Of a stretch of 64,000 bases of DNA, positions 47,092 to 53,987 are shown in pieces. Numbering within the stretch: the first letter of the stretch is position 1; each line of letters starts with the position of its first letter. This stretch comes from Verrucomicrobiota bacterium JB022. Lineage in GTDB: Bacteria > Verrucomicrobiota > Verrucomicrobiia > Opitutales > Oceanipulchritudinaceae. The position numbers and the translations under genes are program-made. Below the pieces are notes generated by a model. It ran no database searches. It was not told the DNA's origin and worked only from the letters and a program-made list of their open reading frames with translations. The stretch spans positions 1 to 64,000 of the forward strand of contig JAUTCQ010000020.1 of assembly GCA_030673845.1 (NCBI GenBank). The letters run 5' to 3'.

Positions 47092-49578
47092 ATGATGTCC
47101 CGCCTCCGCGCCCTTATCTGCATGCTTTTGGGAGCCGTCTCCGCCTACGGACTCACGCCGCCGCCGAGCGGTCAACTGGAACTCGACCTGCGCAAATTGG
47201 GCCGCCTGACCAGCGTGCTCTACGTCGCCGCCCACCCGGACGACGAAAATACGCGCCTGATTGCCTACCTGGCCAACGAAGACCTGGCGTTGACGACCTA
47301 CGTGTCGTTGACCCGAGGCGACGGGGGCCAGAACCTGTTGGGCTCCGACCTCGGGGAACGTCTGGGGCTCGCCCGCACGCAGGAGTTGCTGGCAGCGCGG
47401 CAGATTGACGGGGGCGAACAGCGTTTTTCGCGCGCGGTCGACTTCGGTTTCTCCAAGACGCCAGAAGAAACGCTGGAGATCTGGGGCCGCGAAGCGGTGC
47501 TGGGCGATCTGGTATGGGTGATCCGCAGCCTGCAGCCCGACGTGATCATCACGCGTTTTGGCCCCGAGCCGGGCACGACTCACGGGCACCATACGGCCTC
47601 CACCTGGCTGGCGCAGGAGGCCTTTACCGCCGCGGCCGATCCACAGCGATTCCCCGAGCAACTGGCCCACGTCGAGCCTTGGCAGGCCAAGCGGCTGCTC
47701 TGGAACACGTCGAGCTTCTTCTATGCGGGGCGCGACGAGGTGAATTTTGACCACCTGCTGTCGGTCGATACAGGGGCCTACAATCCTTTGCTGGGCGCTT
47801 CGTATGCCGAAGTGGCCGCTCTGAGCCGCAGCGCGCACAAGACGCAAGGCTTTGGCGCCACGCCCACCTTGGGTGAGGCCAAGGAGTATTTCCAGCACCT
47901 GGCCGGCAGTGAGGCCCAGCGCGACTTGTTTGAGGGCGTCGATACCACTTGGGCGCGCGTAGCGGGCAGTGGCAAGGTGGCGGAGGCGATTGAGGACGCC
48001 ATCGCGGATTTCAACCCCAAGGAGCCGTGGGCGATCGTGCCGGAGCTGTTGCAGGCACGGGCGGCAATGGCGAAATTGCCCGCAAGCTTTTGGCGCGACC
48101 GCAAGCGCATGGAGATCGACTACGTGATCGCTGGTTGCCTCGGGCTCGACCTGGAGAGCGTCAGCCAAAACGCGTCCGCCATTCCCGGCGAGGTTGCTTA
48201 CCTGACGCTCAACGCGATCCAGCGTTCGCCGCATGCGGTGGAGGTGCAGTTTATCGGTCCGGTAGGCGAAACCCTTTCCGAGACCTTGCCGCTGGAGCCC
48301 AACCGCTTGCAGTCGGCCAAGGCGAGCCTCGTGCTGCCGAAGGACGCCGCGATCACGCAGCCCTACTGGCTGGCGGAGGCGCGCGAGCAGCAGGGGCTGT
48401 TTACGGTGAGCGATGCCACCTTGATCGGCCAGCCGGAGAACGGCCCGGCACTGCCGGTGGCAGCCATCGTGAAGGTGGAGGGGCAGACGCTCCGCTTTGC
48501 CCTCCCGAGCACGACCAAGCACAACGACCCGGTGCGCGGGGAGGTGAAGGAGCCGTTTGTCATCACGCCGCCCGCAATGATCAACCTGGCACAAGACATC
48601 CAGATTTTTGGTGCGCCGGAGCCGCGCTCCATCTCCGCCCGGCTGACCTTGGCCGATCCGAACGCCACCGGCATCGTGCGCTTCAAGGCGGGCAACGGCT
48701 GGCAAGTCGAGCCGGCCAGCATTGCCTTTGAGGGCGCCAGACGCAGCGAAATCCCGCTGACCGTAGAGCTGATCCCGCCCGCCAAAGCCGGTGAAGCAAT
48801 CCTGCAGGCGGAGGTAGAAGTCGCCGGGCGCACCTACACGCGGGGCTTTGAGCAGCTACGCTACGAGCACATCCCCGTGCAGACCCTCTTCCCCGAGGCC
48901 AAGGCGCGGCTGGTGTTGCTGGACGTGCGCAAGGCAGGCGAGCGCGTGGGCTTTATCCCCGGCGCGGGCGACTTGATCCCGGAGGCGCTGGTGCGACTGG
49001 GTTATCAAGTCGATACGCTGACCGAAGCCGACCTGCGCCCGCACAACCTCGCCCGCTACGACGCGATCGTGCTTGGCATCCGCGCGGTCAACACGGTCGA
49101 CCGCATCGGCTATTACCTGCCCGCGCTCTTTGAGTATGCGAAGCAAGGGGGCGTGGTGGTGATGCAATACAACACCAACCGCAGCCTGCAGACGGAGGAC
49201 TTCGCGCCCTACCCGCTCACGCTTTCCCGCGACCGCGTGACGGACGAGACGGCGGAAATGACCGTGCTCGCGCCGAGCCACCCGGTGCTGAACTTCCCCA
49301 ACCGGATCGGTCCGGCCGACTTCGAGGGCTGGGTGCAGGAGCGCGGCCTCTATTTTGCCTCAAACTGGGACGACGCCTACACCCCGATTTTTTCCGCTCA
49401 CGACGCGGGCGAACCGCCTCGCGAAGGCAGCTTGCTGATCGCCCCGGTCGGTGAAGGTTGGTTTGCGTATAGCGGGCTCTCGTGGTTCCGCCAACTGCCG
49501 GCCGGAGTGCCCGGTGCCTACCGTATTTTTGCCAACCTCGTTTCCCTCGGTCACGCGCATGACGACGCCGCACATTGA
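47092..49578 (+). CDS. Secreted PIG-L family deacetylase with C-terminal extension
   Basis: The 828-aa protein has a signal peptide (about 1-20), then a LmbE/PIG-L domain (about 35-300) with the zinc motif AHPDDE (47-52) and a second His site THGHH. Members remove acetyl groups from N-acetylglucosamine-type substrates; BshB and MshB are relatives. A long beta-rich middle and a ThuA/glutamine-amidotransferase-like C-terminal region (about 600-820, KAGERVGFIPGAGDLIPEALVRLGY) follow. It should act in the periplasm or outside. It overlaps the 39-aa membrane-peptide gene by 20 bases and leads the run to the symporter and the Bsh genes. A substrate related to bacillithiol is inferred from context only. 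Confidence 0.88.
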   Translation: MMSRLRALICMLLGAVSAYGLTPPPSGQLELDLRKLGRLTSVLYVAAHPDDENTRLIAYLANEDLALTTYVSLTRGDGGQNLLGSDLGERLGLARTQELLAARQIDGGEQRFSRAVDFGFSKTPEETLEIWGREAVLGDLVWVIRSLQPDVIITRFGPEPGTTHGHHTASTWLAQEAFTAAADPQRFPEQLAHVEPWQAKRLLWNTSSFFYAGRDEVNFDHLLSVDTGAYNPLLGASYAEVAALSRSAHKTQGFGATPTLGEAKEYFQHLAGSEAQRDLFEGVDTTWARVAGSGKVAEAIEDAIADFNPKEPWAIVPELLQARAAMAKLPASFWRDRKRMEIDYVIAGCLGLDLESVSQNASAIPGEVAYLTLNAIQRSPHAVEVQFIGPVGETLSETLPLEPNRLQSAKASLVLPKDAAITQPYWLAEAREQQGLFTVSDATLIGQPENGPALPVAAIVKVEGQTLRFALPSTTKHNDPVRGEVKEPFVITPPAMINLAQDIQIFGAPEPRSISARLTLADPNATGIVRFKAGNGWQVEPASIAFEGARRSEIPLTVELIPPAKAGEAILQAEVEVAGRTYTRGFEQLRYEHIPVQTLFPEAKARLVLLDVRKAGERVGFIPGAGDLIPEALVRLGYQVDTLTEADLRPHNLARYDAIVLGIRAVNTVDRIGYYLPALFEYAKQGGVVVMQYNTNRSLQTEDFAPYPLTLSRDRVTDETAEMTVLAPSHPVLNFPNRIGPADFEGWVQERGLYFASNWDDAYTPIFSAHDAGEPPREGSLLIAPVGEGWFAYSGLSWFRQLPAGVPGAYRIFANLVSLGHAHDDAAH

Positions 49579-49678
49579 TGAACCGCGCCTCTCCTGGCGC
49601 ACGATTTACGGGCTCGTCCTCGGTTGGCTGATCGTGCTGATCGTGGGCATGAAACTCTTTGGCGTTTACTTCGCATGA
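49559..49678 (+). CDS. 39-aa single-helix membrane peptide
   Basis: The peptide starts MTTPHIDEPRLSWRTIYGLV, has one hydrophobic helix (about residues 17-35) and ends FGVYFA. It overlaps the PIG-L gene at its start by 20 bases and the symporter start at its end by ATGA. This tight embedding argues that it is translated. Tiny one-helix partners are known for several SSS symporters, so it may be a stabilising subunit of the next gene. No conserved family was recognised by eye. Confidence 0.65.
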   Translation: MTTPHIDEPRLSWRTIYGLVLGWLIVLIVGMKLFGVYFA

Positions 49679-51360
49679 CCTCGCTCGACTGGTTGGTGCT
49701 CGCCCTCGTGGTGCTGGGGATCGTGGGCTATGGCATGTGGACGGCTCGCCGCAATCAGGGCCTCAGTGGCTACCTGAAGGGCGGCGACCTGAAATGGGGC
49801 ACGATCGGCCTCTCCGTCATGGCGACGCAGGCCTCGGCCATCACGTTTCTTTCCACGCCCGGTCAGGGCTACGAGAGCGGGCTGGGCTTTGTGCAAAACT
49901 ACCTCGGGCTACCCATCGCGCTGGTGATCATCTCGGCGGTGTTCATCCCGATCTATTACCGGCTCAACGTCACCACGGCCTACGAATACCTCGGGCAGCG
50001 TTTCGATGAAAAGACGCGCTTGCTGGGTGCCGCGTTGTTCCTGATCCAGCGCGGCTTTGCGGCGGGTATCACGATTTACGCCCCGGCGATCATCGTCTCG
50101 ACCATCTTCGGCTGGTCTCTCGGCACGACTATCCTGACGACGGGCGCACTGGTGATCCTCTACACCGTAACCGGGGGCACCCGCACGGTCAGCCTCACGC
50201 AAAAATACCAGATGCTGGTGATCCTCTTCGGCATGGTCGTGGCGTTTGGCTATGTGGTGGCGGGGCTGCCGGACGACGTCTCCTTCACCGACGCGCTGCA
50301 CCTCGCCGGGATTCAGGACCGCCTGCAGGCCGTCAGCCTGTCGTTCGACCCCAGCGAGCGCTACACCCTCTGGACGGGGCTCGTCGGCGGCACCTTCCTC
50401 GCGCTCTCCTATTTCGGCACCGACCAATCGCAGGTGCAGCGTTACCTCGCCGGCAGCTCCCCTAGCGCGAGCCGCCTGGGCCTGATGTTCAACGCGGTGC
50501 TGAAGATCCCGATGCAGTTCGGCATCTTGCTACTGGGCTCGCTGCTCTTCGTCTACTACCAGTTCCAGGAGCCGCCGATCTTCTTCAACCAGGCAGCGGT
50601 AGAGCAAGTGGCGGAGGCCGACCGCGCGCCCCTGGAGGCCAATTTCCGCGAACTGGTGGACGCCCGTCAGCCCTTGTTGCGGCAGGCCTTGGCCGAGCAG
50701 GCCGCGACGGGTGCCGTGAGTGTGGGTACGCGCACTGCCATCGCCGACGTGAATACCGAGATCGAGGCGCAGCGCGATGGTTTCCGCGAGGCTCTGCGTG
50801 AGGCCAACCCCGACGCGGACACGGAGGACGCTGATTACATTTTCATCGGCTTTGTGCTGCAAAACCTGCCGGCGGGCCTCGTGGGGTTGCTGGTGGCGGT
50901 GATCTTCCTCGCCGCGATGTCTTCGACCGCCTCGGAGCTGAATGCACTGGCTGCCACCGGCATGGTCGACTTTTACAAGCACTTGATCCGCAAGGATGCG
51001 AGCGAACAACACTACGTTTGGGTGTCGAAGACCCTCACGCTCTGCTGGGGTGTGCTCAGCGTCAGCTTTGCGATGACGTTGACGCTGTTCGACAACCTGA
51101 TCGAGGCGGTCAACATCATCGGCTCGCTCTTCTACGGGGCCATTCTCGGCCTGTTTCTGATCGCGTTTTTCCTGAAGCGGGTCGGTGGGCACGCCGCGTT
51201 TTTGGCGGGAATATTGGCCGAAGTGGTTGTTCTCAGCCTCTACTGGTCGTCGCTCGAAATCGGCTACCTGTGGTTCAACCTGATCGGCTGCGTACTGACG
51301 ATCGTCTTCGCGCTGGCCCTGCAACCTCTGATGCCTCAACGCAAACCCCAGACCGCCTAG
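49675..51360 (+). CDS. Sodium:solute symporter (SSS family)
   Basis: The 561-aa protein has about 13-14 membrane helices. LKGGDLKWGTIGLSVMATQASAITFLSTPGQGYESG and SYFGTDQSQVQRYLAG are SSS signatures. A soluble ~90-residue insert (about 305-395) lies between two helices. SSS proteins take up sugars, amino acids, vitamins or organic acids with Na+. The start MTSLDWLVLALVV overlaps the 39-aa peptide stop. The BshC-like gene begins at the base after its stop. Uptake of a product of the upstream deacetylase is an attractive idea but unproven. Confidence 0.9.
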   Translation: MTSLDWLVLALVVLGIVGYGMWTARRNQGLSGYLKGGDLKWGTIGLSVMATQASAITFLSTPGQGYESGLGFVQNYLGLPIALVIISAVFIPIYYRLNVTTAYEYLGQRFDEKTRLLGAALFLIQRGFAAGITIYAPAIIVSTIFGWSLGTTILTTGALVILYTVTGGTRTVSLTQKYQMLVILFGMVVAFGYVVAGLPDDVSFTDALHLAGIQDRLQAVSLSFDPSERYTLWTGLVGGTFLALSYFGTDQSQVQRYLAGSSPSASRLGLMFNAVLKIPMQFGILLLGSLLFVYYQFQEPPIFFNQAAVEQVAEADRAPLEANFRELVDARQPLLRQALAEQAATGAVSVGTRTAIADVNTEIEAQRDGFREALREANPDADTEDADYIFIGFVLQNLPAGLVGLLVAVIFLAAMSSTASELNALAATGMVDFYKHLIRKDASEQHYVWVSKTLTLCWGVLSVSFAMTLTLFDNLIEAVNIIGSLFYGAILGLFLIAFFLKRVGGHAAFLAGILAEVVVLSLYWSSLEIGYLWFNLIGCVLTIVFALALQPLMPQRKPQTA

Positions 51361-52134
51361 ATGCCCTCCACCGAACCGGTTATTTGTTTCGGGCAGCAAC
51401 CGTGCGGGTTTCTGCCCCGGCGCTTCCTTTGGGCCAAGATCGTGACGGCCAAGCGACTGCAGCGGGAAATCGGCGGGCGCATCGTGTTCTTTTACCACGA
51501 CAGCGACCACGACCCGCGTGAGACGCAGACCATCCTGACCGATCTGAAGACAGGTGAGGAGCAGAAGCTGAACTTCACCTTCGCCAATCGCCTGCAGAAG
51601 AAATACGCGCCCCTCTACGCCAAGCAGGTCGACCGCCAGTGGCAGGCGCAAATGGCCCGGCAGTTGCCCAAATACCTGCCGGAGCCGCAGGTGGAGGTCT
51701 TCGCCGCGATCCAGGCAGGTAACGTTGCGGATTTCTGCCTCGAAATGTATCGCACCCTCAACTTGCTCGACGGCGTGGAAGTGGTGCGGTCCAGCGATCG
51801 CGCGTTTCGGGAAACGGCGTGTGCGGTGGAGGACTACTTTGTCGACGTGCCGCACGAGGGGGAAATCGTCCGTGCCCGCCTGGGTGAAAACGGCGCCCTG
51901 CGACTGCACAAGGGCGGCAACGCCTTTGAAGACCTGCCGGCACAGGATTACGGCAAGGCCCAGATCAGCCCCACCCGCGACACGCGCCTGCGCTGGATGC
52001 AGTCGGTGATCCGCTGTACCCACTACATCGCGGGTGCGGGCGAGATGAACTACCTCGACACCAGCGAAGCCCCGGAAATCGCCTTCGTTTCGCGCGACCC
52101 CATCGACAACTCCAGCGCTGCCTACATCCCATGA
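51361..52134 (+). CDS. Miniature BshC-like protein
   Basis: The 257-aa protein has no signal peptide. Its N-terminus reads ICFGQQPCGFLPRRFLWAKIVTA and continues to FFYHDSDHDPRE. BshC proteins (about 540 aa; bacillithiol synthase, adds Cys to GlcN-malate) have an equivalent GQQ-x-G...PLY-x-x-K-x-x-T segment and a nucleotide-site EDHD motif. The C-terminus, RWMQSVIRCTHYIAGAGEMNYL (about 211-232, split here at 20), parallels the BshC block ending GPGEIAYW. About half of BshC, including the coiled-coil region, is missing. It abuts the symporter and overlaps bshB by ATGA, in the place where bshC would be expected. Assignment is by motif order and context; catalysis is unproven. Confidence 0.6.
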   Translation: MPSTEPVICFGQQPCGFLPRRFLWAKIVTAKRLQREIGGRIVFFYHDSDHDPRETQTILTDLKTGEEQKLNFTFANRLQKKYAPLYAKQVDRQWQAQMARQLPKYLPEPQVEVFAAIQAGNVADFCLEMYRTLNLLDGVEVVRSSDRAFRETACAVEDYFVDVPHEGEIVRARLGENGALRLHKGGNAFEDLPAQDYGKAQISPTRDTRLRWMQSVIRCTHYIAGAGEMNYLDTSEAPEIAFVSRDPIDNSSAAYIP

Positions 52135-52835
52135 GCCTCACCTACTCCATCCTCGCCCTCGGCGCCCATCCCGACGACCTCGAATTTGGCTGCGGCGCGG
52201 TGTTGTTGAAAGAGCGCACCCGTGGCACCCGCCTGACGCTCGCCATTTCTTCGCGCGGTGAAGCGGGCACTGCCGGCACGCCGGAAGAGCGCGAGGACGA
52301 AGCCCGAGCCGCCTCCCAGATGCTGGGCGTACCGGATGGCCCCGTATTTCTGGATTTCGGTGGCGATGGGCAGCAACGCGAGACGCCGGAAAATGCGCTG
52401 CAGCTGGCCAGGCTGATCCGCCGGATCCAGCCCGACCTCGTGCTCGCCCCGCTGCCCTGCGAAAACCAGCACCCAGACCACACCGTGGTAGGGCGACTGG
52501 CGCGGACGGCTTGCCGGCAGGCGCGCTATGGCGGGCTGCTCCGCGATCTGCCGCGCCACTCGGTGCAAGGGCTGTGGTTTTACTCGATCACCCACGAGAG
52601 CCCGCTGGACGGGGCCGTGCTGGTCGATATCTCCGCGCAGGTCGAGGACTGGAAGCGTCTGATGCATTGCCACCAGACGCAGGTGCAAAGCCGCGCCTAC
52701 GTCGACCTCCAGCTCTCTCGCGCCCGCCAATGGGGCTTGCGGGCCGGCTGTGAGCACGCCCTCGCCCTCTGGCCCAACGACCCGCCTCGCCTGGATTACC
52801 TGACCGACCTGCCTTACAGCGCCCGCAGTTTCTAA
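52131..52835 (+). CDS. bshB: Bacillithiol-type N-acetylglucosaminyl-malate deacetylase
   Basis: The 234-aa cytoplasmic PIG-L enzyme has LGAHPDDLEFGCG (zinc site, AHPDD at 12-16), SRGEAGTAGTPEER, and the C-terminal HPDH motif in CENQHPDHTVVGR. In bacillithiol synthesis BshB removes acetyl from GlcNAc-malate after BshA. Size and motif spacing match BshB1 well. It overlaps the BshC-like gene (ATGA) and lies nine bases before bshA. A general LmbE-type deacetylase is the alternative, but the adjacent bshA decides. Confidence 0.85.
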   Translation: MSLTYSILALGAHPDDLEFGCGAVLLKERTRGTRLTLAISSRGEAGTAGTPEEREDEARAASQMLGVPDGPVFLDFGGDGQQRETPENALQLARLIRRIQPDLVLAPLPCENQHPDHTVVGRLARTACRQARYGGLLRDLPRHSVQGLWFYSITHESPLDGAVLVDISAQVEDWKRLMHCHQTQVQSRAYVDLQLSRARQWGLRAGCEHALALWPNDPPRLDYLTDLPYSARSF

Positions 52836-52844
52836 CCCTTTTAC

Positions 52845-53987
52845 ATGAGCGACTTCCTCCGCATCGGCATCGTCTGCTACCCCTCTATCGGCGGGAGCGG
52901 CATCTTGGCTACCCACCTCGGCAAGCTCCTGGCCGACGCCGGGCACGAACTGCACTTCATCAGCTATGAGCGCCCGGTAAAGCTCGACCTGCCGTCGCCG
53001 AACCTGCACTTCCACGAAGTCACCGTCAGCGAATACGCGCTGTTTCGCTATCCCGACTACACGCTGCCGCTGTCGGTCAAGATCGCGGAGCTGAGCGAAG
53101 CTTATGATCTGGACGTCTTGCACGTGCACTACGCGGTGCCCCACGCCACTGCGGCCCTGCTGGCCCGCCAGATGCGCCCCGGCCACAAGCGCCCGGTGAT
53201 CGTCACCACACTGCACGGCACCGACACCACGCTGATGGGCCGCGACCCGCATTATCGCCCGATCATCAAATACAGCATGGAAAGCTCCGACGGCGTCACG
53301 ACGGTCTCGCACGCGCTCAAGGCCCAGACGCTGGAAAACTTCGGCCTCGAGCACCCGATCGAAGTGATCCACAACTTTTACGATCCCAAGCCCCCGCAAG
53401 TCTCGCGCGAGCAGATGCGGCGCGAGCTGGGTGTGGCGGACGACGAGGTGTTGTTGCTCCACATGTCGAACCTGCGGCCGGTCAAGCGCTTCCCGGACAT
53501 CCTGGAAGCCCTCTCGCTGATGCAGACGCAGCCCAAGGTGAAGCTGCTGGTAATGGCCGGGACCGACTTCTCGCCCTTCCGCGCGCAGGCGGAAAAGCTG
53601 GGCGTGGCCGACCGTATTATCGTGCGCGAGGCGGTCTGGGAGGTCAGCGACTACATCGAGGCGAGCGACATCGGCCTCTATGCCTCCGAACAGGAGAGCT
53701 TTGGCCTGAGCATCCTCGAATCGCTGAGCTACGGGCGTCCGGTGGTGGCGACCCGCACCGGCGGCATCCCCGAGGTGGTGCGCGAGGGCGAGACGGGCCT
53801 GCTGGTGCCGGTGGGCGATACGGCAGCCATGGCTCGTGCCGTTGATCGGTTGGTGCAGAACCCCGAGCTGCGTCAGCTGATGGGAACGATGGCCCGCGAC
53901 GATGCTTTTGTGCGCTTTTCCGGCCCGCCCGTGCGCGACCGTTACCTCGAGCTTTACCGTCGCCTCTTGCGTGAGGCGGGCGCATAA
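52845..53987 (+). CDS. bshA: Bacillithiol-type glycosyltransferase BshA
   Basis: The 380-aa GT4 glycosyltransferase starts [25 protein letters not shown] and has [55 protein letters not shown] and the UDP-binding [18 protein letters not shown] block. These are the specific features of BshA, which makes GlcNAc-malate from UDP-GlcNAc and malate, the first step of bacillithiol. It follows bshB closely; the thioredoxin-like gene begins 19 bases after it. This is the strongest evidence that the operon makes a low-molecular-weight thiol. Confidence 0.9.

Follow-up and report, generated by a model that had tools for sequence, protein, structure and literature searches.

A conserved single-helix peptide encoded directly before a bacterial sodium:solute symporter and proposed as its accessory subunit

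Does the short open reading frame squeezed between a deacetylase gene and a sodium:solute symporter gene in Verrucomicrobiota bacterium JB022 encode a protein, and if so, does that protein belong with the symporter? The locus lies in the window analysed here, a stretch of 64,000 nucleotides covering positions 1 to 64,000 of contig JAUTCQ010000020.1. Bacterial members of the sodium:solute symporter (SSS/SLC5) family are mostly studied as single polypeptides. Should the product of the short frame be a genuine subunit, an entire bacterial branch of the family would be heteromeric, and transporters that are expressed or assayed without their 30–60-aa partner may be inactive.

The frame occupies positions 49559–49678 of the forward strand, and its product, MTTPHIDEPRLSWRTIYGLVLGWLIVLIVGMKLFGVYFA, extends over 39 aa from an ATG start to a TGA stop (49676–49678). 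Its start overlaps by 20 nt the open reading frame of a large PIG-L/LmbE-type deacetylase whose N-terminus resembles a signal peptide (47092–49578, forward strand; PF02585), and its stop shares an ATGA (49675–49678, forward strand) with the symporter ATG at 49675. The frame, its coordinates and both overlaps had been described correctly in the original prediction, as had a charged N-terminus followed by one helix: a single hydrophobic helix spans approximately residues 15–36, and the charged residues are mostly located before it. No second ATG was found upstream of the helix in this frame, and an in-frame GTG at 49451, which would yield a 75-aa product, was rejected as the start because it is unsupported by the relatives, most of which are 30–60 aa long. 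Neither the peptide nor its family has a meaningful match in Pfam or NCBIfam (58 members scanned against Pfam). The peptide profile matched PDB entries only at E>0.5, and no description of the peptide was found in the literature. Weak matches of single members to DUF2839, Git3, IcmG and other Pfam or NCBIfam models were scattered and far below the cut-offs, and were discarded. The peptide family is new and uncatalogued; small helical subunits of transporters are already known as a kind. The gene is of the type that gene finders would overlook, and as a conserved small gene that neither tested library (Pfam, NCBIfam) contains, it is ready for inclusion in annotation pipelines.

Symporter orthologs were collected from bacterial genomes, and all frames with an end near their start codons were tabulated with no motif required; nearly every ortholog proved to be preceded by a small frame in which W-x3-Y comes before a single hydrophobic helix. 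Verrucomicrobiota and Bacteroidota genomes were added afterwards. Because the later scans required W...Y or something like it, the invariance of W and Y is partly imposed. Equally placed frames, for which a search in related genomes had been proposed at the outset, immediately precede 174 distinct symporter orthologs, which come from Verrucomicrobiota, Bacteroidota and a few other bins; the median peptide length is 40 aa. The family core consists of an ungapped W...Y..V... stretch and one helix, followed by [FL][TS]..[FY][SA], and the consensus of the 176-peptide profile reads W0, Y4, V7, L11, I15, F18, F/L21, T/S22, F/Y25 and S/A26. In the window peptide, this conserved 27-residue ungapped core runs from W13 through residue 39, and the codons of the W-x3-Y motif (W13...Y17) lie at 49595–49609 on the forward strand. 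The W is replaced by Y in L223, a divergent member. In 96 of the 174 loci, the peptide stop and the symporter start share 4 nt, and in 160 the two lie within 15 nt of each other, while several genomes keep the peptide with a gap of 16–139 nt. The original prediction had hinged on conservation of the helix or of the overlap in close relatives: both are conserved, and across two phyla. The ATGA overlap is more frequent than any other arrangement but not universal, and the peptide and its placement are better conserved than the 4-nt overlap itself.

Transporter carriers in the two phyla nearly all encode the peptide directly before the symporter. Among orthologs with at least 45% identity, the peptide is present in 151 and absent in three (L052, L153 and L202), and two apparent exceptions (L016 and L077) carry it further upstream. 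A recognisable adjacent peptide is also absent from approximately nine divergent symporters of the subfamily, and the peptide is therefore not strictly indispensable. The symporter tree makes the peptide ancestral, with these absences nested inside peptide-bearing clades, a pattern that speaks for loss, or for a sequence too diverged to be recognised, over late gain. No natural peptide–symporter fusion was seen among the loci read. Two loci from Rokuibacteriota bins (L023, L085) and one from a Cyanobacteria bin (L073) have clusters closely resembling the Opitutia arrangement, and may represent misbinned contigs or transfer.

The conserved frame could in principle serve only as a translational-coupling device, in which its translation opens the symporter start and the peptide itself has no function. 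The 4-nt overlap in 96 of 174 loci, the tight spacing in most of the others and the rarity of Shine–Dalgarno-like motifs before the symporter start (15 of the 96 overlap cases) are all consistent with such a device, but the amino acid sequence is itself under selection. Over 25 related pairs and 24 core codons, in which some sequences recur so that the counts are not all independent, pS was 0.39 and pN 0.13 (pN/pS ~0.33), and substitutions at codon positions 1, 2 and 3 numbered 113, 54 and 175; this pattern is plainly that of a protein-coding sequence under purifying selection at the protein level. Conservation over core positions 5–25 peaks at a 100-degree helical period (permutation p=0.008, W and Y excluded), and conservation confined to one face is expected for a helix packing against something. 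One helix face is conserved across phyla, and the genomes with a 16–139-nt separation have given up the coupling and not the protein. A coupling role alone is in our judgement very unlikely.

The linkage between peptide and symporter is close to complete. When 288 Verrucomicrobiota genomes were searched, a profile of the peptide alone (E≤1e-3) matched 18 times, once per genome, and a search for the symporter (E≤1e-100) returned the identical 18 genomes, again one each, with all 18 pairs adjacent; neither was found in the remaining 270. Because some of the 18 genomes contributed to the profile, its sensitivity is somewhat flattered, while the absence of peptide-only genomes is unaffected. No such peptide accompanies the other SSS genes of the window's own genome, and the peptide is almost never encoded apart from its symporter. 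The genes on either side offer another candidate partner: the peptide could serve the secreted PIG-L deacetylase or a bacillithiol pathway as membrane partner, its place before the symporter being coincidental. In most loci the peptide gene is immediately preceded by the large PIG-L gene, whose end often overlaps the peptide start by 4 nt, and bsh genes follow downstream in Opitutia. The PIG-L gene is not obligatory, however. The peptide stays with the symporter where no large PIG-L is adjacent, as in two of the 18 Verrucomicrobiota genomes (G141, G313) and in many Bacteroidota loci (L010, L015, L044, L047, L059 and others are further loci of this kind), and one locus (L153) has the symporter directly after PIG-L with no peptide between them. 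In most of the Bacteroidota loci surveyed, no relatives of bshA or bshB turned up close to the symporter. The peptide follows the symporter and not its PIG-L or bacillithiol neighbours; its persistence without an adjacent PIG-L points to the symporter as the partner, and we regard partnership with the deacetylase or the thiol pathway as highly improbable.

The frame thus exceeds chance and is a real gene, which quite probably encodes a single-helix accessory subunit dedicated to one subfamily of SSS symporters. The peptide is conserved, selected and genetically locked to one transporter, as expected of a single-helix transporter subunit, and the earlier proposal of a small subunit coupled to the symporter is well supported at the sequence level by conservation across two phyla and by the symporter linkage, from which we infer physical association of the two proteins. 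Ribosomes finishing the peptide may restart at the overlapping symporter ATG, and this coupling would bring the peptide into the membrane shortly ahead of the symporter, with the two in matched amounts. Lysine and arginine are enriched before the helix (2.13 per N-terminal flank versus 0.53 per C-terminal flank), which predicts an orientation with the N-terminus inside and the C-terminus outside. The conserved face (core positions 0, 4, 7, 11, 15, 18, 21/22 and 25) would then pack on the symporter exterior, where the helix might most likely aid assembly or stability, or hold the scaffold domain during the transport cycle, by analogy with MAP17 and SGLT2.

A conditional regulator resembling AcrZ, MgtS or MgtR, which would tune symporter activity or FtsH turnover and not act as a constitutive subunit, is a further interpretation. 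Such regulators usually come from separate, differently regulated genes, whereas position and overlap lock the peptide gene to the symporter within the same transcriptional unit, which favours a fixed stoichiometry. Size and a single helix do match known regulators (PMC10710835), yet overall we consider regulation of this kind improbable.

The partner symporter (561 aa; 49675–51360, forward strand) is assigned to the SSS/SLC5 family by TIGR00813 (246.4 bits, cut-off 184), PF00474 (151.7 bits, cut-off 22.8), PDB relatives and an ortholog model. Its nearest solved relatives are NIS, SMVT, SMCT1 and SiaT. A charged insertion of approximately 90 residues (residues ~300–395; window ~50580–50860), probably a loop, splits the PF00474 match. 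The model of an ortholog (L020) has the SSS fold, with Z scores of 40 to SiaT, 37 to SMCT1 and 37 to NIS over residues 60–620. It matches SSS structures from TM0 to approximately TM12, and the match ends at SGLT1/2 residue 549–550, i.e. before TM13, the helix that MAP17 binds; judged from this model, the window symporter appears to be without TM13. As a modelling device, the in-frame L020 peptide, its natural spacer and the symporter were folded together with AlphaFold2, with intergenic stops read as glycine. The symporter was modelled confidently and the peptide helix less so (blocks of pLDDT ~60–75), and only the symporter part aligned in structure comparison. A covariation analysis of 171 peptide–symporter pairs by mean-field DCA (Neff ~113) gave scattered pairs and no coherent interface, and counts as no evidence because the set is too shallow.

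The closest functional parallel is MAP17 (PDZK1IP1; human SGLT2/SGLT1), which likewise has a single helix and works with an SSS/SLC5 transporter. SGLT2, a member of the same transporter superfamily, needs MAP17 as an essential auxiliary subunit, and MAP17 stays with the bundle domain while the rest of the transporter moves (PMC10803289). It binds TM13 (PMC10803289, PMC9616851), and its tethering to IL6 implies a cytosolic C-terminus (PMC9616851). The two differ in that MAP17 is oriented with the N-terminus outside and the C-terminus inside, whereas the positive-inside counts predict the reverse for the peptide, and in that the helix bound by MAP17 appears to be lacking from the symporter. No kinship in sequence was detected, since the peptide matched neither a Pfam family nor a PDB chain. 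As the symporter model ends before TM13, the peptide may best be read as an additional helix that an SSS transporter of 13 helices receives from a gene of its own. A bolder version makes the peptide an obligatory extra helix of this subfamily supplied in trans, a detached TM13-like scaffold and hence the bacterial counterpart of the SGLT TM13–MAP17 module; it draws on the symporter matching SGLTs only through TM12 and on the predicted in-to-out orientation of the peptide, as expected of TM13, and we hold it as a tentative and rather unlikely reading. If the peptide is a subunit, it would offer a bacterial and genetically tractable counterpart of MAP17–SGLT2, whose mode of action is still debated.

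Small membrane proteins encoded next to bacterial transporters provide further comparisons. DUF4212, the 'solute:sodium symporter small subunit' of VC_2705-type SSS transporters, resembles the peptide in being small, hydrophobic and encoded directly upstream of an SSS gene. The window's own genome also has a classical DUF4212 gene followed by an SSS gene (L102, 2454–2810, reverse strand; contig C13), which allowed an internal comparison. The L102 protein matches PF13937 at 2e-29 and has 118 aa with two hydrophobic segments, compared with approximately 40 aa and one helix in the peptide, and no member of the peptide family alignment matched PF13937 at E≤0.01. DUF997 (YhdT) is a small membrane protein found beside PanF. 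The small membrane protein DUF3311 shares an operon with MctP (PMC9100948). Both are larger than the peptide and belong to different Pfam families, and neither Pfam model matched any of the 58 peptide members scanned. The peptide differs from DUF4212, DUF3311 and DUF997 in sequence, size and helix number, these three being multi-helix proteins. KdpF, CydX and AcrZ are like the peptide in being 30–50-aa single-helix subunits or modulators of membrane complexes, but their partners are unrelated and no sequence relation to the peptide was found.

The neighbouring genes bear on what the symporter might carry. Downstream of it lie, all on the forward strand, a 257-aa protein of no assigned family (51361–52134) that is conserved beside the symporter in Opitutia, a BshB1-like PIG-L deacetylase (52131–52835; TIGR04001 124 bits, below the cut-off of 182.5) and BshA, the N-acetyl-alpha-D-glucosaminyl L-malate synthase of bacillithiol biosynthesis (52845–53987; TIGR03999 409 bits, cut-off 273.7), which together give the Opitutia loci a bacillithiol-type cluster. 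The PIG-L and bacillithiol neighbours suggest a sugar- or thiol-derived substrate, and this link is a hint, since bsh relatives go mostly undetected near the Bacteroidota loci. A 2018 survey listed Verrucomicrobia as having no documented or predicted low-molecular-weight thiol (PMC6282198). In the window, the cluster at 51361–53987 combines a confident BshA with the BshB1-like protein, and a search of the window's own genome, which is 97% complete, gave no canonical BshC (PF10079). The 257-aa protein, which matched nothing in Pfam, NCBIfam or the PDB, is a candidate for the missing last bacillithiol step. A locus in a Gemmatimonadetes bin (L052), from which the large PIG-L gene and the peptide are both absent, has the symporter, the 257-aa protein, bshB and bshA in the same order.
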